A DNA stretch of 64,000 nucleotides, taken from positions 1-64,000 of the forward strand of contig NZ_KB889607.1 in the NCBI RefSeq assembly GCF_000372745.1, given 5' to 3'. The translations under genes were made by a program, and so were the position numbers. The notes under the pieces were generated by a model. The model did not search any database, was not told the DNA's origin, and saw only the letters and a program-made list of their open reading frames with translations. This document shows, piece by piece, positions 17,101-34,784 of the stretch. The stretch is from Embleya scabrispora DSM 41855. GTDB lineage: Bacteria > Actinomycetota > Actinomycetes > Streptomycetales > Streptomycetaceae. The number at the start of each line of letters is the position of its first letter. Position 1 is the stretch's first letter.

Positions 17101-18738
17101 TTCACCAAGCCGCCGAGCCCGTGGCTGGCCCCGCTGCCGCATCGGGTGCCGACCGAGGACCTGCCTGAGTGGGCGCCGGCCGCCGATCGGCAGCCGGGTG
17201 AGCTGGAGCCGGTCGCGTGGGCGATGGAGGACGTGCCGCACCTGCAGGCGCGCAAGGCGGTGCTGCTGGATCCGAGCACGTTCGGCCACCTGTTCGTGGT
17301 CGGCGCGCCGCGGACGGGCCGCAGCCAGTTGTTGCGCACGATGGCGGCGGCGCTGGCCGGCCGGCATTCCTGCGGGGTCGTGCACATCCAGGCGATCGAC
17401 GCGGGTGGCGGCGCGTTGGCCGCGTTGGCCGATCTGCCGCACTGCGGCACGGTGGTGCCGCGCAACGACCTGAGTCGGATCGACCGGCTCATCTCCCGGC
17501 TCGGCGAGGAGCTGAGCGTGCGTCAGGAGCTGTTGTCCCGGCACGCGTGCGCGAATCTGGCCGAGCTGCGCGCGGGTGACGCGCAGGCGTGTCCGGCGCA
17601 TGTGTTCCTGCTGATCGACGGGTGGGATCCGCTGGCACCGACGCTGTACGAGTACGACGACGGCCGGGTGATGAACGAGGTGATCCGGCTGCTGCGCGAG
17701 GGGGCGGCGGCGGGTGTGCATCTGGTGATGACCTCGGAACGGGCTTTGATCAACGGGCGGTTGTCCTCGGTCAACGACGACATGGTGCTGCTGCGGTTGG
17801 CCGATCGCAGCGAGTACGCGGGCGCGGGCGTGCCGCGGACCGCGATTCCCGGTTCGATGCCGCCCGGGCGGATCCTGCTGTCGGGCTCGTGGACCGAGGC
17901 GCAGGTGTGCCTGCTCGGTCCGGGCGAGAGCGGGCGCGAGCAGGTCGAGGCGCTGCGCCGGATCGCGGCGAACGCGCGCGAGCGGGACGCGGGCGTGGAT
18001 GCGGCGCGCCGGCCGTTCGAGCTGGCCGCGTTGCCCACCACGATCGCCTTCGCGCAGGCGTACGAGGCGGTGACCCAGGAGCAACGACGGCCGCTGTGGG
18101 CGTTGTTGGGCATCGGCGGCGACGCCGTCGGCGCGGTGGGGGCGGACTTCGGCGACGCGCAGCACACCTTCGCGGTGGTCGGTCCGCCCGGCAGTGGGCG
18201 CAGCAACACGCTGGCGACGATGGCGGTGTCGTTGTTGGCGAGCGGGACGCGGGTGGTGGCGATCACACCGCGTGATTCGCCGCTGCGGTTGTTGCGTGCG
18301 CATCCGTTGGTGACGTTGGTCGAGGGTGCCGACTCGGACGGCTCGCGTACCTCGGCGGCGGTCGAGGATCTGGCCGGTCCGGCGGTGGTGTTGATCGACG
18401 ATGCGGATCTGCTCTCCGACATGGGGTCGATGGTCGGGTACGCGCTGCGCGATGTGATCGGCTCGGGCCGGGACCGGGGCATCGGGCTGGCGTACGCGGC
18501 GACCGCGGAGACGTTGTTGCAGTCGCTCAGCGGTTGGCTGGGCGACGTACGACGCAACCGGCAGGGCATCCTGCTGTCGCCGCAACTCGGTGGCGAGGGT
18601 GATCTGATCGGCGCCCGGCTGCCCACCGAGCGGGTCCGTCAGCCGCTGCGCATCGGGCATGCCTGGATCCGGGACCGCAAGGGCTTCCTGGCTCCGGTGC
18701 TCGTGCCCGAGACGCACCTGCGCCCCACCGCGCGGTGA
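14176..18738 (+). CDS. FHA-FtsK/SpoIIIE-type ATPase of type VII secretion (EssC/EccC-like)
   Basis: 1520 residues; ATG at 14176 behind GGAGGTG. Residues 1-80 look like a ubiquitin-like (YukD-type) domain. About 95-200 is a forkhead-associated-like domain. Two membrane segments lie at about 266-305 (LLITLAPMLLGLVMV and FFLIFAVFSPIMAL). Three P-loop ATPase modules follow. The first has a full Walker A, GTTGSGKSE near 688, and Walker B, LIVDEF near 793. The second (GAPRTGRSQ near 1043) and third (GPPGSGRSN near 1334) carry Arg in place of the Walker lysine. A strong first ATPase and weaker C-terminal ones is the known pattern for EssC/EccC, the motor that recognises WXG100 substrates. It is at the membrane, next to WXG-like genes. 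The fused N-terminus is more like the EssC of Firmicutes than mycobacterial EccC. Confidence 0.9.
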   Translation: MRLTITVSEPARDRRDSIVIEAEAGTTVRELLEHLADTHDLGAPGIPCRLANTDTALVHGDVLSACGIREGSELTLGSVPAAPDGERPGPPLVELHLAAGPGAGRIWPLSMGTYDIGSDAECAIHIDEPGVPAHGIRVTVGPAGAVRVAVPPGSEVRLGRVYRTRDDTPERPIDPKDKKFADEPPPDPEQPIVGEVAWELGLGLTVGPVLLRPAAPFDAGADIVPSADGAGLDFNRPPRIVEPVKGGRFRIPTRPRGNFRQPFPLLITLAPMLLGLVMVKIFDSYFFLIFAVFSPIMALANWISARRSGRKQFVKDLATYRIRKAEVLADVAASTEVERQGRVDAIPDPSVTGLFATGPGQRLWERRRVDPDHLVLRVGTSAHTSLNEVEDADSESMDRRAHWTVPDVPTAVDLPQQGVLGVAGPTGVALRMAGWLVAQAAILHSPRDVQVRLLTGAAGAEAWGWLAWLPHARGTVRGGPEVLIGSDPETIAARVAELVQVVRSRKAASETLLRNAVFAEPDVVLVVDGARRLREIPGMTQVLQEGPQVRVFSICVDTEERFLPQECTAVIGLNDASAGGGPVATVRRHGTPTVTDVRPDLPTVAWCDAIARALAPVRDVTSPDEGALPDRVLLPELLTLDPPDPAVIGERWRRRPASTRVLLGVGYDGPVSFDLVLDGPHALIAGTTGSGKSELLQSFVAALAAANRPDELTFVLVDYKGGSAFKDCVELPHTLGMVTDLDTQSVHRAMASLGAELTRRELMLAMVGAKDHAEYRSKRLRDAQLPALPRLVLIVDEFATLVREVPDFIPGLVGIAQRGRSLGIHMVLATQRPAGVITADIRANTNLRIALRVTDAGESSDVIDTKDAVAISSATPGRALARTSHHTVIPFQTAYAGTERVDAKAAPEPVRALAAAPEPARPQTSVLSWSRLGRPRPPVAEREVEPLPQVGDAEPTTDLQELVTAISAAAAVLPDFTKPPSPWLAPLPHRVPTEDLPEWAPAADRQPGELEPVAWAMEDVPHLQARKAVLLDPSTFGHLFVVGAPRTGRSQLLRTMAAALAGRHSCGVVHIQAIDAGGGALAALADLPHCGTVVPRNDLSRIDRLISRLGEELSVRQELLSRHACANLAELRAGDAQACPAHVFLLIDGWDPLAPTLYEYDDGRVMNEVIRLLREGAAAGVHLVMTSERALINGRLSSVNDDMVLLRLADRSEYAGAGVPRTAIPGSMPPGRILLSGSWTEAQVCLLGPGESGREQVEALRRIAANARERDAGVDAARRPFELAALPTTIAFAQAYEAVTQEQRRPLWALLGIGGDAVGAVGADFGDAQHTFAVVGPPGSGRSNTLATMAVSLLASGTRVVAITPRDSPLRLLRAHPLVTLVEGADSDGSRTSAAVEDLAGPAVVLIDDADLLSDMGSMVGYALRDVIGSGRDRGIGLAYAATAETLLQSLSGWLGDVRRNRQGILLSPQLGGEGDLIGARLPTERVRQPLRIGHAWIRDRKGFLAPVLVPETHLRPTAR

Positions 18739-18812: not shown

Positions 18813-19139
18813 TCAGATGTTGTGCGGAGCCGGCGGCTTGACATCCTCGCCGTCCAGGCTCCGCAAATTGTTCACGACCACCTGGAAGGTGTCGCTGAAC
18901 TGCTTGATCGAAACCATCGCCTTGTCGAGCGAGTTGGTCAGCTCGTCATAGGACTGGGTCATCTGCGGGCTCGTCTTCCGCAGATAAAGGCCACCATCGG
19001 GGTTCAGCAACGCCGTCACGGTGGTGCGCAGTGTCTTCAGGGAAGTCTGCGTGTTCGCCGCGCTCAGCACCATGTCGTCGGAGACCAGTTGGACCTCCGC
19101 GATATTGACGTCGACATCCGTACCCAGGGGTGTGGTCAT
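18813..19139 (-). CDS. WXG100-like small protein, GLYL variant
   Basis: 108 residues from the ATG at 19139; the upstream ribosome site is poor. It is predicted helical with a central turn GGLYL at residues 49-53 in the place where WXG100 proteins have Trp-x-Gly. The pattern after the turn (Ser, then Y64, then a leucine heptad) is shared with the 103-residue neighbour, so the two are paralogues. WXG100 proteins form four-helix-bundle dimers exported by FtsK-type ATPases. The gene is last in a three-gene minus-strand operon converging on the ATPase gene. It is a likely export substrate or partner. Confidence 0.75.
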   Translation of the reverse strand: MTTPLGTDVDVNIAEVQLVSDDMVLSAANTQTSLKTLRTTVTALLNPDGGLYLRKTSPQMTQSYDELTNSLDKAMVSIKQFSDTFQVVVNNLRSLDGEDVKPPAPHNI

Positions 19140-19180: not shown

Positions 19181-19492
19181 TCACGCGGACTTCTGGAGTG
19201 CCGCCTTCATCGATTCGTCGAGCTTTTGCGCCGCTTCGACAATCTTGTCGAATTGGCCGGAGAAAGTGGCGATGGTAAGGATCGCCTTTTTCAGGTCCTC
19301 GCTCAGCGTCTTGTACTTGGTGTTGAGTTCCTCGCTGCTGAGCTTGAGCCACAGGCCGGATCCGGGCTTCAGCAATCCGTCCACCTTGGCCTGGAGTCGG
19401 TTGATGTCCAGGGTGGCCGTCTCGGATACCCGCTTCATTTCGAGCTGGGCGGTATGGACCTGGTCATAGGTAATCTTGAAATCGCTGGGCAC
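19181..19492 (-). CDS. WXG100-like small protein, GLWL variant
   Basis: 103 residues from the GTG at 19492 with AAGGAG six bases upstream. Two amphipathic helices flank SGLWL at residues 45-49. The tryptophan is present, but a leucine and lysine follow it rather than x-Gly. Length and helical periodicity fit WXG100. It is paralogous to the next gene downstream, with a 41-bp gap. The pair would form a heterodimer in analogy with EsxA/EsxB. Confidence 0.8.
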   Translation of the reverse strand: MPSDFKITYDQVHTAQLEMKRVSETATLDINRLQAKVDGLLKPGSGLWLKLSSEELNTKYKTLSEDLKKAILTIATFSGQFDKIVEAAQKLDESMKAALQKSA

Positions 19493-19544: not shown

Positions 19545-20363
19545 CTACCTCCGGTCGCGCCCGCCGCCGCCGGTCGGTGGGCGGTTGGGCGGTTCCTTGA
19601 CGACCTTGGTCCACTCGGCCTTCGGGTCGTTGACGTTGGGGGTGGTGTAGACCGTCGTGCCGTCCTTGTCGGTGACCGTCTTGGTGCCCCGGCCCGAGCC
19701 GTCGACCGTGACCTTTTCCGTGGTCACCGAGCCGTCGCGGCCGGTGGTGACGGTGTCGTAGGCGCCATGGGCACCGTATGTGGTGTGCTCGGTGTAGGTG
19801 GTGCCGTGGTCGGTGATGGTCACCGTCTGCTCGGTGACGTTGTAGTCGCCGTCGACCTTGACGGTGACGTCGGTGGTCACGCCGTACTTGTCGGTGCTCG
19901 TGTAGTGCAGGGGTGGTTCGGCGCTCGGTTGCGGGGGCGCCGTCTCGCCTTCCTTGGGCTTTCCGTCCGGGTGGGTCCTGAGCCATTCCTCCCAGGTCTT
20001 CTTCTGTTCCAGCCAGCGATTCAGTGGATTACGGCCGGGTGTCGCGGCGAATTGCGCGGCGACACCGTCGTCCCATGCCTCGGCACCGTCCGCGACATAG
20101 CCGAGGAGTTTGGAAAGCGCCTCCAGACCCTCGACTGCCTTACCCATCGGAAACGACCAGGCCGTGTAGAAGGAGCCGAGCGGAGCGGCCACTCCACCGA
20201 TGTCCCCGGCCGGAACGGTACCGTGCTGCCCGGGCACTCCGGAACCATAGGTGCGAAACTTCGACGCGTCGTCCTTGAAGGTATTGGCGAGCGCCGTCAA
20301 CGCGCCGGCCATTTTGCGAAGCTCGGTGTAATCCAGGGAGATATCGGGCAAAGGGAACTCCAT
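19545..20363 (-). CDS. WXG-domain protein with Thr/Val-rich beta tail
   Basis: 272 residues from the ATG at 20363. Residues 1-110 are helical, with AWSF (W about 69) at the expected turn, in the style of longer WXG-domain secretion substrates. A Lys/Pro/Glu linker follows (about 140-165). The last hundred residues are Thr/Val/Asp-rich with short repeating strand motifs (VTVKVDG, VTITDHG, VTTGRDG, VTVDGSG), suggesting a small beta-solenoid or beta-sheet repeat. It heads the minus-strand operon with the two short WXG-like genes and is divergent from the giant gene. It could be an exported substrate or a chaperone-type partner. No toxin domain is recognised. Confidence 0.7.
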   Translation of the reverse strand: MEFPLPDISLDYTELRKMAGALTALANTFKDDASKFRTYGSGVPGQHGTVPAGDIGGVAAPLGSFYTAWSFPMGKAVEGLEALSKLLGYVADGAEAWDDGVAAQFAATPGRNPLNRWLEQKKTWEEWLRTHPDGKPKEGETAPPQPSAEPPLHYTSTDKYGVTTDVTVKVDGDYNVTEQTVTITDHGTTYTEHTTYGAHGAYDTVTTGRDGSVTTEKVTVDGSGRGTKTVTDKDGTTVYTTPNVNDPKAEWTKVVKEPPNRPPTGGGGRDRR

Positions 20364-20543: not shown

Positions 20544-23500
20544 ATGCCACGCAATGTCGATGCCACGACGTTGAAAAAGCTGGGATACACGACGGACCCT
20601 ACGCCGGGTGATCCGACCTCGATCACGGATGCCTCGCTATATCTGGCCGCGTTGACCAAGAAAGCCGGCGACGCCTCCACGAAACTCGCCGGGCTGCTCC
20701 AGGAGGGCCCGAAAGCGCCGCTGATGGGCGAGGCGGCCGGCGAGCTGCGCGCGCACGTCAAGGACCAGCTCAAGTTGTTCGTGGACAAGCTGGCCCAGGC
20801 GACCCAGCTCGCGAGCACGGCGCTGTCCACGTACTCGACGGATCTGCTGGCCGCTCAGCAAAGGGCCGGGGAGGCGCTGAACGCCGCGGCCCCACTGCCC
20901 GAGAACGACCCGGGTCTGGCCGCGGCCAAGGCCACCATGGCCACGGCGCGCACGATGTATCTGGACGCGGTGGAGAAGGCACGCAAGTCGCTGGCGTCGG
21001 CCACCGCGCTCAAGACGAGTCCCAAGACGGTGGCCGAGGAGTTCTGGGACTTCTTCAAGATCTTCACCATCGTGCTGACCGTGCTCGGTGTGCTGTTCGG
21101 CGGCCCGCTGGGCCTGTTGGCGTTCGGCGCCAACCTGGTCGTGCTGGGCAAGACCATCGCCGACTTCGCCCGGGGCAAGGCCAGTGGCCTGGAGTTGTTC
21201 CTGAACATCCTGGGCGTGCTGTTCCCCTCCACCAAGGCGCTGTTGCCCGCGCTGCTCAGCGGCCTGAAGAACCTCCTGGTGGGCCTCGGCAAGGGCGCGG
21301 TCAACCTGTTCAAGGGCGCCGGCGACCTGTTGTCGCTGCTGAGCACCGGGCTCAAGGGATTCAACCTGGCCGGCTGGAAGTTCGCGTTGGCCTACGCGAG
21401 CCTGCTGACCGGCACGCTGGTCTTCAAGGGCGGCGCGCTGGTCGGCAAGCTGCTCACCCTGCCGTTCAAGGCGATCGTCTGGATGGGCAAGACCGCTTGG
21501 GCGGTGGGCAAGAAGGGCTTCGGCGAACTCAAGGGCTGGGGCTCGCTGGGCGTCTTCCTGCCGGTCGCCGGTGACGAGATCGCCAAGCTGGGGTTGGCCC
21601 GGGCACTCAGGATCGGGTTCTGGGAGCGCGGTGTCCTGGGCAGCCAGAAGGACTTCATCCGCGCGTCGCTGGGTGTGCCGCCGGCGGCGGCGGGCGGCGC
21701 GGGCAAGTTCGGCGGTCACAACCTGGACCGGGTGCCCGGCCTGACCGGCAAGGATCTCGCCGCGTTCAACGGCCATCCCAACCTGTCCATCGGGGCCTTC
21801 GACCCGGGCGGCATCGCCCGGGCCGGGAGTTCCTTCGACACCGCCGTGTTCGTCCCGGCCGCCAGTGGCCTGTACACCCCGCACTACGGGCTCGGCGTGT
21901 ACACCTTCGACCACACCCTGCTCGGGCACGAGGGGCTGCAATCGCTGGGCAGCACGGTCGGCCACGCGGCCGGCCCGAATACGCACTGGAACTCGCTGCA
22001 CGACGTGCTCAACCAGGCGACCGGCGGCATGTCCGCGCTGCACGGACTGACGGGCGCCGTCTCGCCGCACACGATCGGCAGCGCCGTGGAGGGCAGCCAG
22101 TCGTTCACCAAGAGTGCGATCGCACTGGGCGACGACGTACGGATGACCCCGCTCCCGGAGATCCGCCGGCTGACCCACGGCGACACCACGCTGACCAGCG
22201 TCGGTACGGAGCGCTTCGTGGCCGCGGCCCCCGACCCGCTCGCGAACAAGATGCCGCCGCCGACCTCCACGCACACCCCGAGCCTGTCCCACTCCGTGTC
22301 CTCGCCCGGCACGCCGACCTCGGTACACACGCCGACGCCACTGACCGAGGGGGCGGGCACGCGGCCGACGGTCGGCACCTCGTTCTCCACGGCGCCGACC
22401 GGCGGGGCTGCGGCCAAGGTGGACGTGTTCGACATGCTGGCGCCCGCACCGGGCCGGGTCGGGTCGACGCCGCCGCCGGTCCCGCCCGCGGGTCCGGGCG
22501 GCGCGGGAGTGTCCGCCCTGCACCAGGACAAGGCGTTCGACCTGTTGGCGGGCGGATCCCGGGGCGCGGACCAGGTCCCGGCCGTGTCCGCCCGGTTCAC
22601 CCCGGTCGACCTGGCGGGCGGCAACACCGCCGCCCCGCGCCCGGACCTGGCGGGTGGTCGGGGCGCGACGGACACCGTGTCGGCACTCGTCGGCGAGAAG
22701 ATCCCGCTGCGCGCCGACCCGCCCCGGGTCGATCCCACGCCCGTACCGCCCGCCTCGCCCCCTTCCACCGTCGGCGTGGGGCATCCGTCGCCGCCGCCGA
22801 ACGCACTGGCCGACTTCGGGGCCGAACAGCGCAATCTCGTGACCAAGGTGCTCGACGACCTGGCCGACGGACCCGGCCCCGGTGCCAAGTCCACGATCCC
22901 GCTGCCCGGTTCACGGATCGAGGCGTGGCACGACTACACCCGGGCCAAGCACACCTTCGAGCGGGCGGCCGCGGCAGAGCAGGCGCTGCGGGTCGGGCAG
23001 TTCACCGGCGATACCAGCAGCGGCACGGTGCGGGCCGAGCTGATGATCGCCACCGCGAGCCGGGCCAATGCCGGGCTCGCGCTGGCGGATGCCACAACCG
23101 CGTTGAAGGCGTGGGGCGTGGACCCCGCGGTCGCCGCCCCGGCGATCGCCGAAGCGCTGGCCAAGCTGCCGGGCCTGCGCGGCGGGACGCGCCCGGTGGG
23201 GGGCGGCCCCGACGTCCGACCGCGCACAACCGACTCCTGGCGCCACCCCGAACGGGCCGCCCGCACCGACGAGTCCGTCATCGTCCGGTTCGACGGCCCG
23301 GACGGCATGGACCACTTCGAGATCCACGGCCCGATGGGCCCGACCGGCACACGTGCCCTCCTGCACGACGGATATCGCCTGCCCGACGGCACCCACCAGG
23401 TCTTCGACGGTCCCGCGCGTGCCGACAGCGCGTTCCAGGTCTGGGCGGACACCGACGGCACCATCCTCAGGCGCGGTGAACTGCGGGCCGACGGGCACAC

Positions 23501-26500
23501 CTTCCGGGTCACCGATGTCGAGGGCGGCAATTTCCAGCTCTGGAGCGCGCGCGACGCCCACGGCGACCACCGCGTCCTCGCCGATGCCCGGCGCCTCGAC
23601 AACAGGCACTTCAAGGTCTTCGACGGCCCGGAACGACCCGGCACGGGATTCCAGATCTGGCGGGACCCGTACGGCACCTCCATCCTGAGCGCCCACCCCG
23701 GCCCGAACGGCACCTTCCACGTGCACTACGGCCCCGCCGGGCATTCGGACGACTTCAGGGTCTGGGGGCCGGAAGGGGCCGACGGCATCCACCCCGTGCT
23801 CGGCGATGCCCACCGACTCCCCGATCGCACCTGGGAGATCCGGGGCCTGCCGGGGCGCGCACCCGACGACTTCCAGGTCTGGGGACCACGCGGCGCCGAC
23901 GGCGCGCACCCGGTGCTCCAGGACGTGTACACACGCGGCGACGGCATCTTCCAGGTCTACGACGGGCCCCGGCTCGGCCCCACCCAGGACTTCCGGATCC
24001 GGGACGCCCAGGGCAACATCACCGGAGCGGGCAGGTATCGGGCCGAGACCGCGGACTTCATGGTCACCAACGTCGGGGACCGGCACTTCCAGGTCTGGGA
24101 CACCACCGGATCCGTCCTCAAGACCGGCGAGCACCTCCCCGGCACCGACACCTTCAAGGTCACCGGCGCCACCGGCGACGACTTCCAGATCTGGGGACCG
24201 GCAGACGCGCACGGCGCGCACCCGGTACTCGGCGACGCCCGATCCCTCGGCGACGGCACCTACCGGGTGGTCGACGGAGCGCCCACCGGACCCACTCAGG
24301 ACTTCCGCATCCAGGACGGGACCGGCACCGTGCTCAAGGCCGGCGAATACCGGCCCCTCAGCGGCGACTTCAAGGTCACCGTGCCCGGCGGGCGCGACTT
24401 CGAGATCTGGGGTCCACCGGCCGAAGGGGGCACCCACCCGGTACTCGAGGTGGCCGAGTCCCTCGGCGACGGCACCTATCGGGTGGTCGAGGCGCCACGG
24501 ACCGGACCGACTCAGGACTTTCAGATCCGGAACGGCGAGGGCACGGTCCTCAAACACGCCGAATACCGGCCCCACACCGATGACTTCAAAGTCGCCGAGC
24601 CCGGCAACGCCGACTACGAGATCTGGGGACCACGCCCCGCGGACGGCAGCCCCCACCCGGTGCTCAACGACGCCCGCGCGCTTCCGGACGGCAGCCACCA
24701 GGTCTACTCCCGGCCGCGCACCGGCCCGGCGCAGGACTTTCAGATCTGGAACCACGACGGTGTCCCGATCAAGAACGGCACCCGGATCCCGGGCAGTGAG
24801 CGCTTCCGGGTCACCGGTGTCGACGACCAGGTCGAGGGCTTCCAGATCTGGGGACCCCGGGAGGGGAACCCCCAGGCCGTGCTCGCCGACGCCCGCCGAC
24901 TGGGCGACGGCCGGTATCAGGTCTTCGACAACGCGCCCTGGGCCACGGAACGCAACTTCGAGGTGTGGGCGGACGACGCCTTCAAGTTCGACCGCAATGG
25001 TGGCGTGCACGGTAGGCGGGTCACCCAGATCGGCGAATACCAGCCGTTGAGCGGCGAGTTCAAGGTGAGCGACCGGATGCGCAACACGTGGGAGCAGTGG
25101 GACAGCCCCGACCCGGTCCGGCACCGGCTCGTCGAGTACCCCCTCGACGGCCCGATCGCCGGTGTCACCCGCCGGATCGATCACGAGACCCTCACCTGGC
25201 ACGACAAGCGCCCCCCGGGCACCGTGGTCGGCCACAACGTGGGTTGGGAACACATGTCGTTCCGCAAGGGCGTGGTGGAGAAGTGGCCGGCCGGCCCCGA
25301 CGGCGCGGACAACGGGATCCGCCGACTGGTCGACGGCGACGGAACTCCCGTCTACACCCGAGACCCGTCGAGCATCGAGGGCGGCGGCTGGATCGAGGGT
25401 TCCCGGGATCACCGGGGCAAGTGGACATGGGTCGAGAAGACCACCCACAGTCGCCCGATCGCATCCGGCAGCCGCTACGTCCGCTGGGACAACACCTCGT
25501 ACGACGTGATCGACGGCGTCTTCGAGCTCAACGCCCGGCACCTGTTCGGTGGGAAGGTACGCGACTTCTTCCCGCAACTGGACGGTGGCGTCCTGATCAG
25601 CGAGAAGTCCCCTCTCGGGGGCTGGAACTGGCAGAAATGGGGGTCGGACGGCGCGCTTCAGGCCAAGGGCAGGCTCGACTTCCGGTTCAGCCTGGACTTC
25701 GGGTTCAAGGCCCGGGTCACCCATGTCAAGGACGGTACCGACGCGGCATTGCGGGACGTCGGCGACAGCGGGCTCGTCGCCTTCGAGAAATTCGCACCGA
25801 TTCGCGGCGGGCTGGGAAGGAAGTTCTTCTCGGCACCCGACAAGGCCCGGGGCACCAGGCAGTACACGTTCGAGCCGACCGCGCAGCCCGCGAACCAGTT
25901 CAAGCACTACATCGAGCGCAACTACGTCAACGAGGAGGTCGCGACCTTCTCGAAGTTCGGCGACGACGAGTTCAAGGCGCGCCGGATCTGGCAACAGCGC
26001 TTCGACGTCCCGTTCTTCCCCGGCAAGCCGGACTTCCCCGGGGCCTTCTTCACCGGCGACGACCGACTCTTCCGGCACTGGGAGGTCTCGAAGAAGGGCG
26101 GCGTCGGCGGCACGGAGACGATCGAGCGTTCGGTGCGCTTCCAGCGGCTGGACGGCACGTGGCAGGACTTCGACGCGAACGGCCGACTGCTTCGCGAGAG
26201 CCGAGTGCTCCTGGACGGTCGCAAGATCGAATTCACCGCCACCACTCCGGGTGGAAACGGAACCTGGCGAGAGGTCGGTGGCACCGGGACCGGGGTCCGC
26301 GAATTCGGGGCCGACCACCGCTGGACCGACTTTCGGACCGTCCCCGGTTCGGAGCAGCGCATCGTGGTCCGCGAAGTCGTGGACGGCAAGGGCACGGTGC
26401 GCGAGTACGCCGGTGATCCGGGGGCGAACGGACCGTGGGTGGACCGCAACCGATTCGGCCAGATCGTCGAACGCCGCGACGCGCTGGAAGGCGGCGGCTT

Positions 26501-28061
26501 CCGGCACGCGAGGATGGACCACAAGCCCGACGGCCCCTTCACGTGGCACCGGCAGGGCCCCGACGGCGTCGGCCTCCCCGGTGTCGAGAACACCGGTCAC
26601 CGCACCACCAACCGCGGCGGTGCCCGGATGTGGGGCGAGGGATTCGACGACGGGTTCAAGGATTTCCGCCGGATCAACGGCCAGGACGTCCTGGTGTACG
26701 AGCACAAGATGCTCGGTGACGGCCGGGTCGCGGTGATCGAACGCGATGCCGCGGGCAACTACACGACCACGGTCAGGAACCGCGCGGGCGCCCCCGACCC
26801 GCATCCCGGCGAGCACCGGGTGAGCCACGTCGGTGCGGACGGCAAGTACTGGCGCGACGAGATCCACGTGAACGGCGACACGCACACCATCCGCGAGGGT
26901 CGCGGCGACGCGATCCGTGAATACCGGGTCGACGCGAACGGCATCCCGAACACCCGACACTGGGACGACTTCCGCAACGGCACGAAGATCCGCTCGTTCG
27001 AGCCGATCACCCACCAGGGAGACGTGGTCGGCTATCTGGAGAAGGACCTCGCCTACCTCCAGCAGCGTCTGTACGACGCGGACGGCGACATCGTGGTCCA
27101 CCAGGGCTTCTCCACCAAGATCTTCGAGAAGCTGCCGACCGCCGAATCGGGCGTGCTCAACCGCATCAAGTCCTGGGCACATCCGGACAAGCTCGGCGCG
27201 GCCGGCGTCGACTCGCGGTTCAAACTCGTCGGCCGCGCCGTGGACCACCACGGTGCGTTGACCGAGTTCCGCGGCTACAACCGCGGCCTCGCGGACACCA
27301 ACCGACGGCACTGGGGTGCACCCGACGCACTGAACGGCACCCGGGAATGGACCTTCGAGCAGAAGGTCTGGACCAAGGTCGGCATGGAGTTCATGCAGGA
27401 CTTCGGCTTCTCGGTGCTCGCCGGCATGATCACCGAGCTGATCAACGACAAGGAGATCTCCGGCTCCGACTGGGGACGGATCTTCCTCAACTCGGCGGTA
27501 TCCGCGAGCTTCGCCGGCCTGATGGCCCGCCTGCACGAACTCAAGTTCCACCCGGGCTCGTTCTCCCCCAAGCAGTTCAAGGACGGGCTCACCGCGAACG
27601 ACTTCGGCAAGCCGTTCAACACCAACCCGTACTTCGGCGACAACTGGAAGACGGACTGGTCCAACTTCGACACCGCGCTGCGCTGGCGCTCGGGCCTGTA
27701 CAAATTCGGCCTGGGCCTGGCGGTCAACCCGATCGTGGCGTTCGTCAACGGCTCGATCAACGCCGCGGTGTTCGGCGACAAGAACGGTGTCAAGCACTAC
27801 GGCTTGGACGCCCTCAAGTTCGGCGGCGTCGCGGCGCTGGGCTCGCTGGCCACCGGCGCGTTCGGTCCGGGCGCGTTGAAGTTCGGCCTCGACTCCTACC
27901 TGGCGGGCCGCTTCTGGCGCAAGGCCGGACTCCTGGACCTGGGCATCAAGTTCGGCGAGAAGCTCATCGACGCGCAGATCAACAAGTTCTTCCAGAACTG
28001 GCTCGGGTTGAACGACAAGTACCTCTACCACCCCACACCCGAGAACGGACGACAGCCGTGA
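20544..28061 (+). CDS. Giant type VII-associated protein with about sixteen short repeats
   Basis: 2505 residues from the ATG at 20544, five bases after GGAGG. Residues 1-150 are helical and WXG-like in character. Hydrophobic segments follow at about 168-205, and further hydrophobic/amphipathic stretches at 230-340. About 560-800 is a Pro/Thr-rich linker. A second helical block (about 760-890) precedes residues 913-1510, where a unit of roughly 35 residues recurs about sixteen times, each ending in Phe-x-(Ile/Val)-Trp or Phe-x-Ile-Arg plus Gly/Asp. Residues 1511-2270 have looser Gly/Asp/Trp-rich strands recalling YD/RHS repeats. The last 235 residues are again hydrophobic/helical. The N-terminal helical region and the position opposite WXG genes suggest an exported or membrane-inserted substrate. 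No nuclease, protease or other toxin motif and no immunity gene was recognised. Confidence 0.75.
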   Translation: MPRNVDATTLKKLGYTTDPTPGDPTSITDASLYLAALTKKAGDASTKLAGLLQEGPKAPLMGEAAGELRAHVKDQLKLFVDKLAQATQLASTALSTYSTDLLAAQQRAGEALNAAAPLPENDPGLAAAKATMATARTMYLDAVEKARKSLASATALKTSPKTVAEEFWDFFKIFTIVLTVLGVLFGGPLGLLAFGANLVVLGKTIADFARGKASGLELFLNILGVLFPSTKALLPALLSGLKNLLVGLGKGAVNLFKGAGDLLSLLSTGLKGFNLAGWKFALAYASLLTGTLVFKGGALVGKLLTLPFKAIVWMGKTAWAVGKKGFGELKGWGSLGVFLPVAGDEIAKLGLARALRIGFWERGVLGSQKDFIRASLGVPPAAAGGAGKFGGHNLDRVPGLTGKDLAAFNGHPNLSIGAFDPGGIARAGSSFDTAVFVPAASGLYTPHYGLGVYTFDHTLLGHEGLQSLGSTVGHAAGPNTHWNSLHDVLNQATGGMSALHGLTGAVSPHTIGSAVEGSQSFTKSAIALGDDVRMTPLPEIRRLTHGDTTLTSVGTERFVAAAPDPLANKMPPPTSTHTPSLSHSVSSPGTPTSVHTPTPLTEGAGTRPTVGTSFSTAPTGGAAAKVDVFDMLAPAPGRVGSTPPPVPPAGPGGAGVSALHQDKAFDLLAGGSRGADQVPAVSARFTPVDLAGGNTAAPRPDLAGGRGATDTVSALVGEKIPLRADPPRVDPTPVPPASPPSTVGVGHPSPPPNALADFGAEQRNLVTKVLDDLADGPGPGAKSTIPLPGSRIEAWHDYTRAKHTFERAAAAEQALRVGQFTGDTSSGTVRAELMIATASRANAGLALADATTALKAWGVDPAVAAPAIAEALAKLPGLRGGTRPVGGGPDVRPRTTDSWRHPERAARTDESVIVRFDGPDGMDHFEIHGPMGPTGTRALLHDGYRLPDGTHQVFDGPARADSAFQVWADTDGTILRRGELRADGHTFRVTDVEGGNFQLWSARDAHGDHRVLADARRLDNRHFKVFDGPERPGTGFQIWRDPYGTSILSAHPGPNGTFHVHYGPAGHSDDFRVWGPEGADGIHPVLGDAHRLPDRTWEIRGLPGRAPDDFQVWGPRGADGAHPVLQDVYTRGDGIFQVYDGPRLGPTQDFRIRDAQGNITGAGRYRAETADFMVTNVGDRHFQVWDTTGSVLKTGEHLPGTDTFKVTGATGDDFQIWGPADAHGAHPVLGDARSLGDGTYRVVDGAPTGPTQDFRIQDGTGTVLKAGEYRPLSGDFKVTVPGGRDFEIWGPPAEGGTHPVLEVAESLGDGTYRVVEAPRTGPTQDFQIRNGEGTVLKHAEYRPHTDDFKVAEPGNADYEIWGPRPADGSPHPVLNDARALPDGSHQVYSRPRTGPAQDFQIWNHDGVPIKNGTRIPGSERFRVTGVDDQVEGFQIWGPREGNPQAVLADARRLGDGRYQVFDNAPWATERNFEVWADDAFKFDRNGGVHGRRVTQIGEYQPLSGEFKVSDRMRNTWEQWDSPDPVRHRLVEYPLDGPIAGVTRRIDHETLTWHDKRPPGTVVGHNVGWEHMSFRKGVVEKWPAGPDGADNGIRRLVDGDGTPVYTRDPSSIEGGGWIEGSRDHRGKWTWVEKTTHSRPIASGSRYVRWDNTSYDVIDGVFELNARHLFGGKVRDFFPQLDGGVLISEKSPLGGWNWQKWGSDGALQAKGRLDFRFSLDFGFKARVTHVKDGTDAALRDVGDSGLVAFEKFAPIRGGLGRKFFSAPDKARGTRQYTFEPTAQPANQFKHYIERNYVNEEVATFSKFGDDEFKARRIWQQRFDVPFFPGKPDFPGAFFTGDDRLFRHWEVSKKGGVGGTETIERSVRFQRLDGTWQDFDANGRLLRESRVLLDGRKIEFTATTPGGNGTWREVGGTGTGVREFGADHRWTDFRTVPGSEQRIVVREVVDGKGTVREYAGDPGANGPWVDRNRFGQIVERRDALEGGGFRHARMDHKPDGPFTWHRQGPDGVGLPGVENTGHRTTNRGGARMWGEGFDDGFKDFRRINGQDVLVYEHKMLGDGRVAVIERDAAGNYTTTVRNRAGAPDPHPGEHRVSHVGADGKYWRDEIHVNGDTHTIREGRGDAIREYRVDANGIPNTRHWDDFRNGTKIRSFEPITHQGDVVGYLEKDLAYLQQRLYDADGDIVVHQGFSTKIFEKLPTAESGVLNRIKSWAHPDKLGAAGVDSRFKLVGRAVDHHGALTEFRGYNRGLADTNRRHWGAPDALNGTREWTFEQKVWTKVGMEFMQDFGFSVLAGMITELINDKEISGSDWGRIFLNSAVSASFAGLMARLHELKFHPGSFSPKQFKDGLTANDFGKPFNTNPYFGDNWKTDWSNFDTALRWRSGLYKFGLGLAVNPIVAFVNGSINAAVFGDKNGVKHYGLDALKFGGVAALGSLATGAFGPGALKFGLDSYLAGRFWRKAGLLDLGIKFGEKLIDAQINKFFQNWLGLNDKYLYHPTPENGRQP
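23281..25075 (+). repeat. Protein-level tandem repeat array, about 16 units
   Basis: In translation, units of about 33-37 residues recur, with alternating endings such as DFQIWGP and DFRIQD and shared blocks HPVL.DA, LGDGTY.V and GEY.P. At the DNA level the copies are similar but diverged, so the array is old or under selection rather than newly amplified. Confidence 0.75.
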
Positions 28062-30634
28062 GTGTGTTCGGCAACCGCGGTGGCGCCCGCGGAAATCGCG
28101 GCGACCGCGCCAATCGGGGCGCGAACACGCGCCACACGATCGCCGACCTGGTCCGCGCCGCGCCGGACGGCGGACGCGTGCTGCTGGCTCCCGGTGAGTA
28201 CCGCGAACACGTCGTGCTCGATCGGCCCGTCGTGCTGGTCGCCGAACACGGGCCCGGCAGCGTGCGTCTGACGGGGACTCAGGATGTCGCGCTGACCGTG
28301 GCCGGCGCTGTCGGGGCCGGCGTGGAGGGCGTCGTCCTGATCGCCGCGGACGCGGACGCGCCCGCCGTCCGGGTCACCGGCGCGAGCGAGGTCGCCTTCG
28401 ACGAGTGCCGGATCGTCGGTGGCCGCCTGGAGATCGTCGACGCCGCCCGGGTGCGGTTGACCGGCTGCCGCGTATCCGGTGCCGCGGTGGCCGGTGTGTC
28501 GGTGGCCGGCGAGGCACGGCTGTCGATGACCGGCTGCCGGGTGCTCGCCGTGGACGGACCGGGCGTGCTGTCGGCCGGCTCGGCCACGGTCACCCTCGCG
28601 GATTCGGTGATCACCGAGGCCGTGGTCGGGTTGGGCGTGCGGGACTCGGCGAGCGTCCGGGTGCGCGGTAGCGCGTTCCTGGGCTGTGCGCACAACGCGG
28701 TGCTCGCCGAGGACGAATCGGCGGTCGTTCTGGACGGGTGCCGCTGCGCCGACAGCGGCGAGGACGCGGTGCTGGTGCGCGGCGCCGCCAAGCTGACCGT
28801 GCGCGGCAGCGCGATCGAGCGCGCGGGCGCCTCCGGGCTGGCCGTGCTCGGCCGGGCCGCGGCGAGCGTGTCGGACTGCCGAATCGTCGCGGCCACGCTC
28901 AGCGGCCTGGTCGCCGACGAGGAGTCCCGCCTGGACGTACTGGGCGGGGTGATCCGCTCCACCGGCGCCAACGGCGTCTTCGCGCGCGGGTCGGCCCGGG
29001 TCGGCCTGGACGGGGTAGCCATCGCGGACACCGCGTTCACCGCGGTGCACCTGGACGAGCACGCGCACGGCGAACTCGCCGCGATCGTCCTGGGCCCCAC
29101 GCCCGAACACGGCCTGTGCCTGGCGGGCGCGGCCGTCGTGGCGGCGGACGGGTTGCTGGTGCGCGGCGCCGAGATGACCGGCATCCACCTCGGCGGCACC
29201 GGCAGCGCGCGACTGGCCGGGTCCGCGGCGCACCGTTGCGGCACCGGACTGCGGCTGGAGCGTGACCTGGACGCCGAGGTCGAGGACTGCGCGTTCGGCA
29301 CCACCGGACGAGCCGGGATCGAGGTGGGCCCCGGTGCCCGACCCACGCTGCGCCGGGTCCGGGTGGCCCGGGCCGGGACCGCCGGGATGGTCGTGCACGA
29401 GGGCGCGGCGCCCGGGTTCGAGGACTGTACGGTGACCGACAGCGCGGGTTCGGCGCTGGTGGTGTGGACGGACGCGGCGCCGGTGGTCCGCGGCGGGATC
29501 CTCACCGGCGCGGGCAAGAACGGCATCTACCTCAAGGGTGGCGCCAAGGGCGAGTTCACCGATTGTGTGGTGGGCGGCTCGGCCTATCCGGCGGTGTACG
29601 TGGCCGCCGGGGCGGCGCCGACGCTGCGGGACTGTGCCTTCCGGGACTGTCCGAGCGACGCGACGCTGGAGGATCCGGACGACACGGCGGCGGTGTTCGC
29701 GGACTGTGTGGCGCGCGGGGTCGGGGACACCGTGGTTTCGGGGCGAACCGCGTCGACGCCGCCGGGCACCGAACCCGCCGAGCCGGCCGACCCGGGCGAG
29801 TCGCCCGCGGACCTGACCACGCTGCTGGCCGAACTCGACGATCTGGTCGGGCTGGCCCGGGTCAAGCACGACGTGGCCACGCTGGTGCAGTTGATGCAGT
29901 TGGTCCGGCGCCGCGAGGAGGCCGGGCTGACCCCGCCCCCGCTGAGCCGGCACCTGGTCTTCGCGGGCAACCCGGGCACCGGCAAGACCACGGTGGCCCG
30001 GCTGTACGGCCGGATCCTGGCCGCGCTCGGAATGGTGACGCGCGGTCACCTCGTGGAGGCCGATCGCGGCGCTCTGGTCGGCGAGTACGTCGGGCACACC
30101 GCGCCGCGCACCACGGCGGTGTTCCGCAAGGCGCTCGGCGGCGTGTTGTTCATCGACGAGGCATATTCGCTCACCTCGGCCGGCGGCGGCGACTTCGGTC
30201 AGGAGGCGATCGCCACGCTGGTCAAGTTGATGGAGGATCACCGCGACGACGTGGTGGTGATCGTCGCCGGCTACCCGGACGAGATGCACCGCTTCATCGA
30301 CTCCAACCCCGGCTTGGACTCGCGCTTCAACCGCACCGTCGTGTTCGAGGACTACACCTCCACCGACCTGGTCCGCATCGTCGAACACCAGGCGGCGGCC
30401 TACGAGTACACCCTGGACGAGTCCGCACGCGCGGGTCTGTTCGCCTACTTCGAGTCGGTCCCGCGCGATCGGCGCTTCGGCAACGGGCGTTCCGCGAGGC
30501 AGGCGTTCCAGGAGATGACCGAGCGGCACGCCCGGCGGATCTCCGGGTCGGCCGAGGTGGCGCCGGAGGATCTGGTCTCGCTGCGAGCCCCCGACCTTCC
30601 CGATCTCGTTCCGGCCGCCCCCGATCAGGCGTGA
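28058..30634 (+). CDS. Right-handed beta-helix protein fused to CbbX/EccA-type AAA+ ATPase
   Basis: 858 residues from the GTG at 28058, which overlaps the TGA of the giant gene (GTGA), implying translational coupling. Residues 25-560 form a parallel beta-helix, with about twenty turns each containing a short V-x-L/V-x-G-C strand pattern as in pectate-lyase-like folds. An acidic/Pro linker leads to an AAA+ domain at 590-840. Its Walker A is GNPGTGKTT (about 637-645) and its Walker B LFIDEA (about 697-702), with sensor and arginine-finger-like segments (FNRTVVFEDY). EccA ATPases of ESX systems and CbbX share this AAA+ type. It would act in the cytoplasm, since no signal peptide is seen. The beta-helix may bind the giant substrate or its repeats, which is inference. 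Confidence 0.85.
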   Translation: MSVFGNRGGARGNRGDRANRGANTRHTIADLVRAAPDGGRVLLAPGEYREHVVLDRPVVLVAEHGPGSVRLTGTQDVALTVAGAVGAGVEGVVLIAADADAPAVRVTGASEVAFDECRIVGGRLEIVDAARVRLTGCRVSGAAVAGVSVAGEARLSMTGCRVLAVDGPGVLSAGSATVTLADSVITEAVVGLGVRDSASVRVRGSAFLGCAHNAVLAEDESAVVLDGCRCADSGEDAVLVRGAAKLTVRGSAIERAGASGLAVLGRAAASVSDCRIVAATLSGLVADEESRLDVLGGVIRSTGANGVFARGSARVGLDGVAIADTAFTAVHLDEHAHGELAAIVLGPTPEHGLCLAGAAVVAADGLLVRGAEMTGIHLGGTGSARLAGSAAHRCGTGLRLERDLDAEVEDCAFGTTGRAGIEVGPGARPTLRRVRVARAGTAGMVVHEGAAPGFEDCTVTDSAGSALVVWTDAAPVVRGGILTGAGKNGIYLKGGAKGEFTDCVVGGSAYPAVYVAAGAAPTLRDCAFRDCPSDATLEDPDDTAAVFADCVARGVGDTVVSGRTASTPPGTEPAEPADPGESPADLTTLLAELDDLVGLARVKHDVATLVQLMQLVRRREEAGLTPPPLSRHLVFAGNPGTGKTTVARLYGRILAALGMVTRGHLVEADRGALVGEYVGHTAPRTTAVFRKALGGVLFIDEAYSLTSAGGGDFGQEAIATLVKLMEDHRDDVVVIVAGYPDEMHRFIDSNPGLDSRFNRTVVFEDYTSTDLVRIVEHQAAAYEYTLDESARAGLFAYFESVPRDRRFGNGRSARQAFQEMTERHARRISGSAEVAPEDLVSLRAPDLPDLVPAAPDQA

Positions 30635-30662: not shown

Positions 30663-31811
30663 ATGGCCGAACCCCACAACCAGGACCCCGACTTCGGGCA
30701 GGCGTTCGCGCGCTCGGTGCGCACCCCTCGGCGGCCGCTCCGACCCGGCCGCCGGGTGTGGACCGTGGGCCTGGGCATGCCCGCTCTCGCGGCGGCCGGT
30801 CTGGCCGCGGTGACCATCGCCTCCGCGATCGAGTTCGGCGGTGACGACGACGGAGGTCACCGCAAGCCGGTGGCCCAGGCGGCGCCCATGCAGGACAAGC
30901 CGGTCCAGGTGGTCGCGCCCGGCGCCTCGGCGACGCCGTCGAACGGCTCCACCACCGGGAACAGCACCGATGCCCCGCCCGGCGAGCCCGGCCCGGGCGG
31001 CGGAACGCCGGGTGGTGGCTCGGCGTATCCGCCGGACTACTCCACCGGGGGCAATGGTTCCTCCGGCGGCGCCTCGGGCGGTTCCGGCTCGGCGGGAGGT
31101 CGGTCCGGCGGCTCGGCGGCCGGTTCCAACGGCACGTTCGGTGGCGGCGGTTCCTCGCCCGGGGCGCGTACTCCCGGCGGCGGAGCCCCCGGTGGTGGCA
31201 CCGCGCCGGCGCCCGGCGGCACACCGGGCGGCTCCACCGCGAAGCCACCGGTCGCGCCGCCCGCCCAACCCGGCTCGTTGGCGCCCAAGCAGACCTTTAC
31301 CGGGACCTCGGGGTACGGCTGCGCGAACAGCGGCACGAGCGGCTTCGCCGAGGTCGGCCGCTACAGCGACGGCTCCAAGGGCTGGTACACGGTCGGCAGC
31401 GGCGGGTGGACCAAGGACGGCTGCAACGGAAAGTTCGTCGCGGTGCCGATGTCCGGCGACAAGAACAAGGACGACGCCAGCGCCCGGGTGTTGTGGTGGT
31501 TCGACGTCGGTGCGGCCACCCGGAGCTGCCGGCTCAGCGTGTACGTACCCGCCGGCAGCGGCCGGGACGTGGGCGGCAATCCCGCGCAGTACTACGTGTT
31601 GCGCGGCAAGGAGGAGGACAAGACGGGCGCCTGGTACGACAAGTTCACCGTCGACCAGGTGGCCGACAAGGGCCGTTGGGTGAGCGCCGGTACCTTCCCG
31701 GTGAGCAACGGCAGGATCGCCGTCAAGCTGGTCACGCGGGGCGTGGACTGGGGCGGCACCACCGGAGCGCATCTGGCGGCGGGCCAGGTACAGGCGAGTT
31801 GCACGGGCTGA
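30663..31811 (+). CDS. Membrane-anchored exported protein with Gly/Ser/Pro linker
   Basis: 382 residues from the ATG at 30663, preceded by AAAGG and 28 bp after the AAA+ gene. A short basic cytoplasmic tail is followed by one membrane segment (about 33-57). A Gly/Ser/Pro-rich spacer runs from about 85 to 210. The C-terminal extracytoplasmic domain (about 215-382) has four cysteines (YGC, DGC, RSC, SCTG) that could form two disulfides, and several Trp residues. I do not recognise the domain. As the last gene of the plus-strand block it may act outside the membrane with the secretion apparatus or its substrate. Confidence 0.7.
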   Translation: MAEPHNQDPDFGQAFARSVRTPRRPLRPGRRVWTVGLGMPALAAAGLAAVTIASAIEFGGDDDGGHRKPVAQAAPMQDKPVQVVAPGASATPSNGSTTGNSTDAPPGEPGPGGGTPGGGSAYPPDYSTGGNGSSGGASGGSGSAGGRSGGSAAGSNGTFGGGGSSPGARTPGGGAPGGGTAPAPGGTPGGSTAKPPVAPPAQPGSLAPKQTFTGTSGYGCANSGTSGFAEVGRYSDGSKGWYTVGSGGWTKDGCNGKFVAVPMSGDKNKDDASARVLWWFDVGAATRSCRLSVYVPAGSGRDVGGNPAQYYVLRGKEEDKTGAWYDKFTVDQVADKGRWVSAGTFPVSNGRIAVKLVTRGVDWGGTTGAHLAAGQVQASCTG

Positions 31812-31957: not shown

Positions 31958-32731
31958 TCAGGAGACCTCTTCGGCCAACGAGTCGCCCGCCGGCCGCTGT
32001 GGTGGCAACATCCGGGTCGGGTCGACCGGGGAGTGGGTGATCGGCGCGGACCAGACGATGGGCCTGGGCAGCGGGAACGTCTCACCGCGGTCCTGGCGGA
32101 CCGTGCCGCCTCGGGCCGCCGACTCGCGTCCCGGATCCTCCTGGGGCAGCGTCGCGACCGGTACCGGGAAGCCGGGATTGACCCCACCGGCGGCGGTGAT
32201 CCCGGTCGGCCGCAGCAGCACGCCGATCGTGCGCCACAGGATGACCAGGTCGACCCGAGTGCTGCGGTTGCGCACGTACCAGAGGTCGTATTCGATCCGC
32301 ACCGGCCAGCTCAGCGCGTTACGCCCCTGCACCTGTGCCCAGCCGGTCAGTCCCGGTCGCACGTCGAGCCGGCCGCGCTGGCGTTGCGTGTAGTGCACGA
32401 CCTGCTCGGGCAGCGTCGGCCGCGGCCCGATGATCGCCATGTGCCCGCGCAACACGTTGATCAACTGCGGCAGTTCGTCCAGGCTCGTGGTGCGCAGCAG
32501 TTGCCCGGTACGGGTGATCCGGGTGGCATCGGGTTCGTCCGGATGGCGCGGGTCGTGCATGGTGCGGAACTTGAGGATCTCGAAGTCGCGGCCGTGCAGG
32601 CCGCTGCGTGTCTGGCGGAACAGTACGGGTCCGCCCATACTCGCGCGTATCATCACGTGGATCGCGAGCAGGACCGGTCCCAACAGAACCAATGCCAGCA
32701 CGGCCACGGTGATGTCGAACAGTCGTCGCAT
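31958..32731 (-). CDS. Priming sugar transferase (polyprenyl-phosphate hexose-1-P transferase)
   Basis: 257 residues from the ATG at 32731, behind GGGGAGGGG. It is a short PglC/WbaP-core-type enzyme with one N-terminal membrane segment (residues 5-26). Family motifs follow: LFRQTRSGLHGRDFEILKFRTM, LRTTSLDELPQL and IGPRPTLPEQV, then RPGLTGWAQVQGRN. It moves sugar-1-phosphate from a nucleotide sugar to undecaprenyl phosphate at the inner face of the membrane, the first step of glycan assembly. About 60 extra C-terminal residues are Pro/Arg-rich and of unknown role. It is the last gene of a five-gene minus-strand block. Confidence 0.9.
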   Translation of the reverse strand: MRRLFDITVAVLALVLLGPVLLAIHVMIRASMGGPVLFRQTRSGLHGRDFEILKFRTMHDPRHPDEPDATRITRTGQLLRTTSLDELPQLINVLRGHMAIIGPRPTLPEQVVHYTQRQRGRLDVRPGLTGWAQVQGRNALSWPVRIEYDLWYVRNRSTRVDLVILWRTIGVLLRPTGITAAGGVNPGFPVPVATLPQEDPGRESAARGGTVRQDRGETFPLPRPIVWSAPITHSPVDPTRMLPPQRPAGDSLAEEVS

Positions 32732-32818
32732 GCCATGCCCCTCCCCTGGTGTGGCGTTCGGTGTGGCGTCCTTCGGGCGCCGGCGGTGTCTCCCTCACCG
32801 GCCGTCGCCCGCTGTGCG

Positions 32819-33976: not shown

Positions 33977-34784
33977 GCGCACCGGCCCTCTTGCCCAGGC
34001 TGACCACGGCCGCGTAGGCGCGTTCCTGCACGAGCCGGCCGCCGAGTTTGGCGCGGAAGAACGCGGGAGGGTCGGTGCGCCGGACCGGGACCCGGCGCAG
34101 CCGGATCGGATCGCAGCCCGGGAGGTTGCGGCCGAGCACGCCGGTGGCGGCGCTGCGGAACCGGCAGCGCAGCGCGTGCTCCATGTCCGAGACGGCGATC
34201 CCCCACGGATAGGCGAAGTGCGCCGGGCGCAGCCCGAGTCGGCGCTCGATGTCGTCGGAGGCGTCGTCGAGTTCGGTCGCGGTCAGTGCCTCGGGGCGGG
34301 CGTGGCTCCGGGTGTGGTTGCCGATCGTGGCCAGGCCCGAGTCGGCCAGTTCGGCGACCTGGTCCCAGCTCAGCGCGGCGGATCCGCCGCTGGTGCCGGT
34401 GGATCCCTCCCAGCGCATCTGTTCGCCGATGCATCCGGTGGCCAGGTAGAGGGTGAACGGCAGCGCTCGGGCCCGCAGTTCGGGCCAGGCGTTGGCGTAC
34501 ACGTCGGCGAAGCCGTCGTCGAAGGTGAGCACGATCGACGGCGTCGGGTCGCCGGCCGCGAGCCGGTCCACGGCGGTGTCGAGGGAGACCACGTGCGCGC
34601 GTGGGAGCAGGTCGAGCTGGGCGCGGAACGCGTCTGCGGGCAGGTCGAGTTCGTCGCGGCTGCCGCCGCCGACCCGGTGGTAGATGAGCAGCGTCGCGCC
34701 GGGTGCGGGGTCGCGGTCGAGGGCGGTGGCGGCCAGGCCGCGCTTGAGCGTGGCGCGCACGCGGTCGCCGCTGATGGCGGTCAT
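33969..34784 (-). CDS. Polysaccharide deacetylase (NodB homology, CE4-like)
   Basis: 271 residues; ATG at 34784 overlapping the stop of the preceding FemAB-like gene by 4 bp (ATGA). The NodB core is present: LTFDDGF has the catalytic and metal-binding aspartates, and GNHTRSH supplies the H-x3-H metal ligands. FAYPWG is the usual third motif. No signal peptide is seen, so it may act in the cytoplasm or be exported another way. It would remove N-acetyl groups from a glycan intermediate. Translational coupling to both neighbours puts it in the same pathway. Confidence 0.85.
   Translation of the reverse strand: MTAISGDRVRATLKRGLAATALDRDPAPGATLLIYHRVGGGSRDELDLPADAFRAQLDLLPRAHVVSLDTAVDRLAAGDPTPSIVLTFDDGFADVYANAWPELRARALPFTLYLATGCIGEQMRWEGSTGTSGGSAALSWDQVAELADSGLATIGNHTRSHARPEALTATELDDASDDIERRLGLRPAHFAYPWGIAVSDMEHALRCRFRSAATGVLGRNLPGCDPIRLRRVPVRRTDPPAFFRAKLGGRLVQERAYAAVVSLGKRAGAHA

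Follow-up and report, generated by a model that had tools for sequence, protein, structure and literature searches.

Type VII secretion systems (T7SS) occur in several variants, and Rhs and LXG proteins are named as usual candidate substrates of these variants (PMC11217815, PMC3482391). In the LXG toxins, the end of the protein is the toxin and an immunity gene lies nearby, according to the descriptions of TelE (PMC10434224) and CpnT (PMC8092274); the immunity gene of TelE is the third gene downstream (PMC10434224). A YxxxD/E motif has been described for ESX substrates (PMC8092274). For the protein TsdI of T7SSd, the description includes a Sec signal and a membrane helix at the C-terminus (PMC11217815). 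The main text of Garrett, Higginson and Palmer (2024; PMC11217815) names Streptomyces 0 times, and the function of type VII systems in Streptomyces-like bacteria receives little attention in the literature that we found.

Here, we analyzed a stretch of 64,000 nucleotides from Embleya scabrispora DSM 41855 (the window), in which a giant protein is encoded beside an EssC-like ATPase. Our literature search, with supplements and preprints outside its scope, found no title or abstract opening on this locus or protein. Because the locus is compact and conserved and has one obvious giant partner, the question of its function is genetically testable.

The giant protein and its two ends

The earlier note had placed a 2505-residue protein at 20544-28061, and this was confirmed. 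The ORF is on the plus strand, starts with ATG at 20544 behind an RBS-like GGAGG, encodes 2,505 aa without interruption and stops at 28059-28061. Orthologues with 69, 69, and 56% identity are present in three other Embleya genomes; thus, the giant is a real gene. The whole protein matched no family at E ≤ 1 in Pfam, NCBIfam, or PHROGs, and neither the whole protein nor any of its parts exceeded a curated cut-off in these libraries.

All parts of the protein are encoded on the plus strand. Based on PF21725 and an [LF]xG motif, residues 1-390 (20544-21713) appear to form a WXG/LXG-like helical hairpin with an LMG turn, followed by a hydrophobic region. A Pro/Thr/Gly-rich spacer (residues 391-750, 21714-22793; orthologue identity 51-66%) and a putative helical domain recognized by eye (residues 751-880, 22794-23183; 62-74%) come next. 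Residues 924-1511 (23313-25076) hold 16 repeat units that are predicted to be beta, residues 1512-2227 (25077-27224; 57-64%) are non-periodic and probably beta-rich, and residues 2228-2505 (27225-28058) make up the conserved C-terminal domain that defines the family. Both ends had been called hydrophobic. At a hydropathy threshold of 1.6 over 19 residues, this is true of the N-terminal end, where one stretch passes (176-194, with GxxxGxxxG at 182-190 inside it), but not of the C-terminus, where no stretch passes. The giant has no LPxTG motif and, by eye, no Sec-like start; because of this, and because the C-terminal hydrophobic span is missing, its retention at the surface is a guess.

The T7SS_signal family (PF21725) was matched in 5/5 N-terminal rows, with 23.5 bits for the window and 22.4, 27.9, 15.7, and 24.3 bits for the others, against a cut-off of 27 bits that among these five only the orthologue L030 (27.9 bits) exceeds. 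Two further relatives, from S. clavuligerus (25.0 bits) and genome G092 (26.3 bits), are both under this cut-off, and the signal was not found in the relative G020 or in the full-length paralogue on contig C1. An [L/F]xG-x-x-A turn occurs in 29/30 N-termini of the giant's relatives (it is absent in G132), and the helices that flank it were derived from the sequence. The first 200 residues contain no YxxxD/E export motif. When the N-terminal profile was compared with the PDB, the matches had E-values of 0.024 or worse, to helical proteins such as apolipoprotein E. Judged by its sequence, the N-terminus is WXG/LXG-like and of the type VII type, and the T7SS_signal match together with the [L/F]xG turn is the main evidence that the giant would be exported. 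The T7SS_signal scores and the checks of the YxxxD/E, LPxTG, and GxxxGxxxG motifs pull both ways, and they left the odds of the readings weighed below unchanged.

In the C-terminal domain, 27 columns are conserved to at least 85% over 32 rows, and 19 of these 27 are Gly, Arg, or Trp, a conservation that does not seem to have a catalytic look. Residues 2228-2505 gave no NADase, toxin, or other known domain in Pfam at E ≤ 10, their profile gave no match to PDB sequences at E ≤ 1, and they contain no GxxxGxxxG. The profile of the last 278 residues was found in 22/200 Streptomycetaceae genomes, in 6/17 genera, and in 2/396 genomes of the phylum (our own and another of the same family); 6-12 candidates were scored per genome in these large surveys, which makes the absences soft.

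Altogether, 36 ORFs carry either end of the giant and 26 carry both. From stop to stop, 23 of the latter have 2,436-3,171 codons, one has 1,518, and two have 6,319 and 6,476; the two longest relatives (L078/L079 in G111 and L082/L081 in G087) have the same ends and the same neighbours. The Embleya genome itself contains two further copies, one on C1 and one apparently split between C110 and C174. The halves of the split copy lie at two contig ends (L024:1-3423 on C110 and L025:9145-13374 on C174), and both have a repeat with a period of 130 residues. In L084 (G081) and L085 (G097), the N- and C-terminal parts are in different ORFs, which means that each gene is either interrupted or mis-sequenced.

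The neighbouring genes and their conservation

The first gene of the locus (12231-14144, plus strand) encodes a membrane protein of 637 aa with one strong hydrophobic segment at 41-59 and no Pfam match. The second (14176-18738, plus strand) encodes an EssC/EccC-like ATPase of 1,520 aa with two hydrophobic segments and an FtsK_SpoIIIE match (3.5e-55). It scored 502 bits with the EssC model TIGR03928, under the cut-off of 778, and it is also under the equivalog cut-off of the EccC model. One Walker A motif is canonical (GTTGSGKS at residue 686, in the first FtsK domain), and two are degenerate (GRS). The N-terminus is ubiquitin-like: YukD was matched in 4/12 rows (best 0.0018), and the PDB gave two sequences of the ubiquitin fold at 1e-4. 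It is followed by a probable FHA-like domain, where a weak match to Yop-YscD_cpl, which we take to be an FHA-type fold, was found in 2/12 rows. The nearest solved relatives in the PDB are 4nh0 (an FtsK/SpoIIIE entry, presumably the Thermomonospora EccC), YukB, and EccC5. Such an ATPase, with the ubiquitin-like domain fused to it, could help to explain how domains of the EsaB/EccD type work. The genome has a single EccB match, which lies at C114:263121-264575 and not at the giant locus, and no other known envelope component was found among the window genes scanned.

WXG-like genes had been noticed opposite the giant. The three small minus-strand ORFs are indeed there, but none of them has a WXG100 match in Pfam, and the label is based on their size, position, and linkage. 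Two encode WXG-sized proteins that are candidate export partners: one of 108 aa (18813-19139, start at 19139), with tblastn relatives at 10/28 loci, and one of 103 aa (19181-19492), with a weak match to NCBIfam ESAT6_2 (E 0.019, 15.1 of 100 bits). The third (19545-20363), divergent from the giant, encodes a 272-aa protein without a Pfam match, a candidate chaperone or co-substrate; it has Thr-rich repeats of its own at the end (DKDGTTVYTT, TDHGTTYTE). WXG100 itself (PF06013) was not found on contig C47, and one match above the cut-off (29.3 vs 27.3 bits) lies at the paralogous locus, at C1:68462-68716.

Downstream, a gene that overlaps the giant by 4 bases (28058-30634, plus strand) encodes a right-handed beta-helix (Pfam Beta_helix, 6.6e-38) fused to an AAA+ domain of the SpoVK/CbbX/EccA kind (Pfam AAA, 1.8e-15). 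Its first 597 residues have matches in 120/200 genomes of the family, including all 22 with the C-terminal domain of the giant, and this beta-helix/AAA+ family is not specific to the giant locus. The next gene (30663-31811, plus strand) encodes a 382-aa protein with an N-terminal hydrophobic segment and a weak golvesin-C match (E 0.0046), and relatives of it occur at only some loci. By eye, the flanks of the locus (9849-11621 and 31958-40375) contain polysaccharide-like genes (acetyltransferase, ligase, glycosyltransferases, deacetylases). Also by eye, the minus strand at 490-8714 encodes large, possibly secreted proteins with repeated modules that begin with CSLF, CTLW, or CTIW.

The comparison of loci covered 36 pieces; counting the window, 28 of them have the giant with both ends. 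The gene order runs from the membrane protein through the EssC-like ATPase and the small divergent genes to the giant and the beta-helix/AAA+ protein. It had been suggested that homologues should be sought next to FtsK/WXG genes, and that homologues never linked to such genes would count against a type VII relation; the ATPase is beside the giant in 27/28 loci with both ends, and this linkage spans 5/6 sampled genera that have the C-terminal domain. The beta-helix/AAA+ gene was found in 26/28 loci (one miss, in G132, is a contig end), the divergent gene of the 272-aa type in 26/28, the upstream membrane protein in 21/28 (four of the seven misses, in G129, G020, G132, and EmbNBC, are at a piece or contig end), and small WXG-sized genes, by tblastn, in 11/28. 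By these counts, the type VII linkage of the giant is strong.

Some loci depart from this pattern. The fragmented genome G023 has five divergent C-terminal matches, and its one locus with both ends, viewed over about 5 kb on each side, is without the ATPase or the AAA+ gene. The four G023 pieces L094-L097 have no adjoining ATPase or AAA+ gene, and one copy stands beside a type I restriction-like gene. At the G102 locus, no 272-aa gene was found, and the ATPase lies on the opposite strand. Fragments or G023 loci make up the remaining eight pieces; among them, the ATPase and the 272-aa gene are present in C110 of our own genome, and the AAA+ gene is present in the fragments C174 (own genome), G003_C654, and G137.

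The repeat block and its variation

The claim of about sixteen copies of a repeat was well founded. Cuts at F-x-[IVL] gave 16 units of 32-41 aa each at residues 924-1511, and the autocorrelation of the block has a peak at lag 72 whose score was reached by 0/500 shuffles. No such periodicity exists in residues 1510-2228, where the best lag was reached by 430/500 shuffles. The units have two forms, form A of about 40 aa (FQIWGP..HPVL.DA..LGDGTY.V.DGP) and form B of about 33 aa (DFRI.D..GTVLK.GEYRP...DFKVT); therefore, the true period is about 72 and the half-period about 36. The copies are visible in the DNA too, where they are about 65-83% alike.

The same observer had regarded the repeat as lying outside the known families, YD/RHS included, and had named a confident match to a known family as what would overturn this. 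No significant match appeared in Pfam, NCBIfam, PHROGs, or the PDB sequences: the repeat region alone gave chance-level rows with Pfam and PHROGs (best 0.081), and the profile of the repeat and middle parts gave no match in the PDB sequence search. For the libraries searched, the repeat can thus be regarded as a class without a significant match, and neither of the two outcomes that had been named as refutations was observed. The YD-repeat model did not match the giant, for which NCBIfam gave 0 families at E ≤ 1. This negative result has a positive control, because true YD/RHS proteins were found on four other contigs of the same genome: TIGR01643 had 24 matches on C14, C180, C12, and C106 and none on C47 (150/216 candidates scored). 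In a profile-profile comparison with YD, the window's own units reached probabilities of 0.2-0.8% and all repeat sets 2% or less, whereas the YD control, half against half and with most rows from one protein, reached 98.7%. Thus, two tests with positive controls agree that the repeat is not YD/RHS. It resembles RHS/YD repeats in its all-beta units, in the aromatic-x-I/V...G pattern, and in the loose top rows of Foldseek; it differs from them in the make-up of its units, which are 32-41 residues long and have, by prediction, about three strands each, and in the missing YD model match.

An AlphaFold model of residues 906-2105 had a mean pLDDT of 48.8 (60-77 in parts of the repeats) and was all-beta with about three strands per unit. 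A model of eight units with the other copies as extra rows was worse (mean pLDDT 45.1), again with about three strands per unit. The fold of the repeat is therefore all-beta by prediction, at a confidence too low to name it. Searches with the low-confidence 906-2105 model (pLDDT 48.8) gave top rows that include teneurin and Rhs shells in Foldseek (TM 0.07), and a best Z of 5.9 (9jsa), then engineered OspA, in VIA-align. Besides the teneurin/Rhs shells and OspA, the rows included propellers and parts of large clostridial toxins; all scores are low, no fold was adopted from them, and we regard the clostridial toxin rows as meaningless.

We compared the parts of the window's giant with those of its three orthologues. 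The identity was 90/89/73% for the N-terminal part, 87/85/76% for the C-terminal part, 64/64/57% for the middle, and 66/65/51% for the spacer, while the repeats had 53/52/35% with 75/149/92 gap columns. Copy-number change and fast change seem to be strongest in the repeats, as expected of a recognition or spacer part. In 16/36 ORFs, the strongest windowed lag had z ≥ 6, at 38, 64-74, or 130-143 residues and between the spacer and the middle; these z values are over lags and have no shuffle control. Of the remaining ORFs, 19 were under z 6 and one was too short for the test.

It was expected that the relatives' repeats would be of the same class as those of the window, and the profile comparison and the unit HMM ruled this out. 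The repeats of S. clavuligerus, the Embleya paralogue (G001_C14), G160, and G111 matched each other at 94-99% in 5/6 pairs (26% for S. clavuligerus and G111), the repeats of G020 had no match above 50% to any of these four, and the window's own units had none above 14% to the five relatives. Strong scores with the unit HMM were confined to the window and the three Embleya orthologues, and the other family members had E-values of 0.007 or worse or were unlisted. Because the lag signals share their location and the window's repeat class has no match above 14% among the five relatives, we conclude that the same slot is found again in the relatives with different contents. Beyond the genus, the query with the repeat region had two weak matches in 117 genomes of the family, one at E 2.9e-4 and one, located within an ATPase gene, at E 6.7e-4. 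Among 395 other genomes of the phylum, the repeat profile had one weak match (E 3.4e-4), L110 of the small genome G497, which belongs to a different family. With unrelated repeat arrays placed between ends that stay constant, the giant is a clear case of modular evolution.

Possible roles and comparison with known systems

We estimate a probability of about 50% that a small type VII variant from the same locus has the giant as its dedicated substrate of very large size, which is placed at the surface or handed to a neighbour. A surface or contact protein that would be exported is the most likely reading; a toxin comes next, and a machine component is third. From the observed anatomy, family, and linkage, we infer the export, the location, and the role of each part. 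The beta-helix/AAA+ protein, in an EccA-like role, and the small proteins would keep the giant export-competent. Its WXG/LXG-like hairpin would dock on the EssC-like ATPase, in which the sole intact Walker A is that of the first FtsK domain. The giant would be pushed out and would then stay at the cell surface or pass to a touching cell. The beta-repeat slot, with its fast-changing sequence, may form a stalk or shell that is rich in beta structure and can be extended, and a constant job such as anchoring, assembly, or membrane contact may fall to the conserved C-terminal domain. More tentatively, there may be an undescribed type VII subtype of Streptomycetaceae for the export and assembly of one giant, with a ubiquitin-like domain in the ATPase, the beta-helix/AAA+ protein as a loader, and, between the constant ends of the giant, an exchangeable and fast-evolving beta-repeat array that would serve for recognition or for setting the length of a cell-contact surface structure.

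It is rather unlikely that the giant is a polymorphic contact-dependent toxin, that is, a carrier of the LXG/RHS-like kind that kills or permeabilises neighbouring bacteria through its C-terminal domain or through an N-terminal glycine-zipper. Such a protein would have the type VII-type N-terminus and the long repeat middle seen here. The GxxxGxxxG of the N-terminal hydrophobic segment, the teneurin and Rhs rows of the low-confidence model, and the place of Rhs and LXG proteins among the usual candidate substrates of T7SS variants are also in its favour. However, the C-terminal domain is one conserved family over all its rows and no swappable cassette, it has no toxin domain by Pfam, and it is without the GxxxGxxxG that TelE has there. 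Because the AAA+ gene overlaps the stop codon of the giant, no immunity gene stands directly after it. Distance alone does not exclude such a gene, since that of TelE is itself third downstream, and a toxin without an adjacent immunity gene is possible. The comparison with CpnT made in the earlier note is far less probable. The type VII relation that it proposed is supported by the N-terminus and the ATPase linkage, and CpnT as a close model is not supported. The giant is likewise large, two-ended, and type VII-linked with a WXG-type N-terminus, and a trace of WXG100_2 (E 0.28) exists in the S. clavuligerus relative. In contrast to CpnT, its C-terminus has no NADase/TNT-like or any known domain and is conserved, not a swappable toxin; the middle is unrelated, and no immunity gene follows directly. 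To our knowledge, the host is not a mycolic-acid diderm.

The giant could also be a structural part of the secretion machine, an envelope-spanning conduit or scaffold like EsaA of T7SSb or TsdI of T7SSd, and this is unlikely. There is one giant per locus with conserved ends and, in 23/26 ORFs, a similar length. Moreover, something must replace EccB and the envelope components, because EccB is elsewhere and none was found among the window genes scanned. TsdI is also large and multi-domain (PMC11217815), but the N-terminus of the giant is WXG/LXG-like and its C-terminus has no clear span, unlike TsdI.

The reading as a dedicated substrate can be set against the known systems. The giant resembles T7SS_signal/LXG toxins in its N-terminal WXG/LXG hairpin, long repeat middle, and small partner genes beside it; it differs from them in its conserved C-terminal domain, in having no immunity gene directly after it, and in the ATPase beside it. 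From T7SSa (ESX), the locus differs in having no EccB. The AAA+ domain of the downstream gene matches EccA, the AAA+ chaperone of T7SSa (TIGR03922, 220 bits), but SpoVK (265 bits) and CbbX (233 bits) outscore it, all three under the cut-off, and the N-terminal part is a right-handed beta-helix.

The gene set appears to fit none of the T7SS types described in the main text of PMC11217815, whose supplement may hold an unnamed member. T7SSd and the variants c-j of that text are similar in the EssC-like ATPase with an FHA-type N-terminus, in the small helical partner genes, and in a large protein in the locus, outside the T7SSa/T7SSb pair. T7SSd differs in that here the giant, by its start, is no Sec-type TsdI, and no kinase (TsdD) was matched in Pfam among the eight window locus genes scanned (for the ATPase, among the best 25 of 28 rows). 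Here, the ubiquitin-like domain is fused to the ATPase, and, in difference from T7SSd and the variants c-j, the beta-helix/AAA+ protein and the giant are constant members of the locus.
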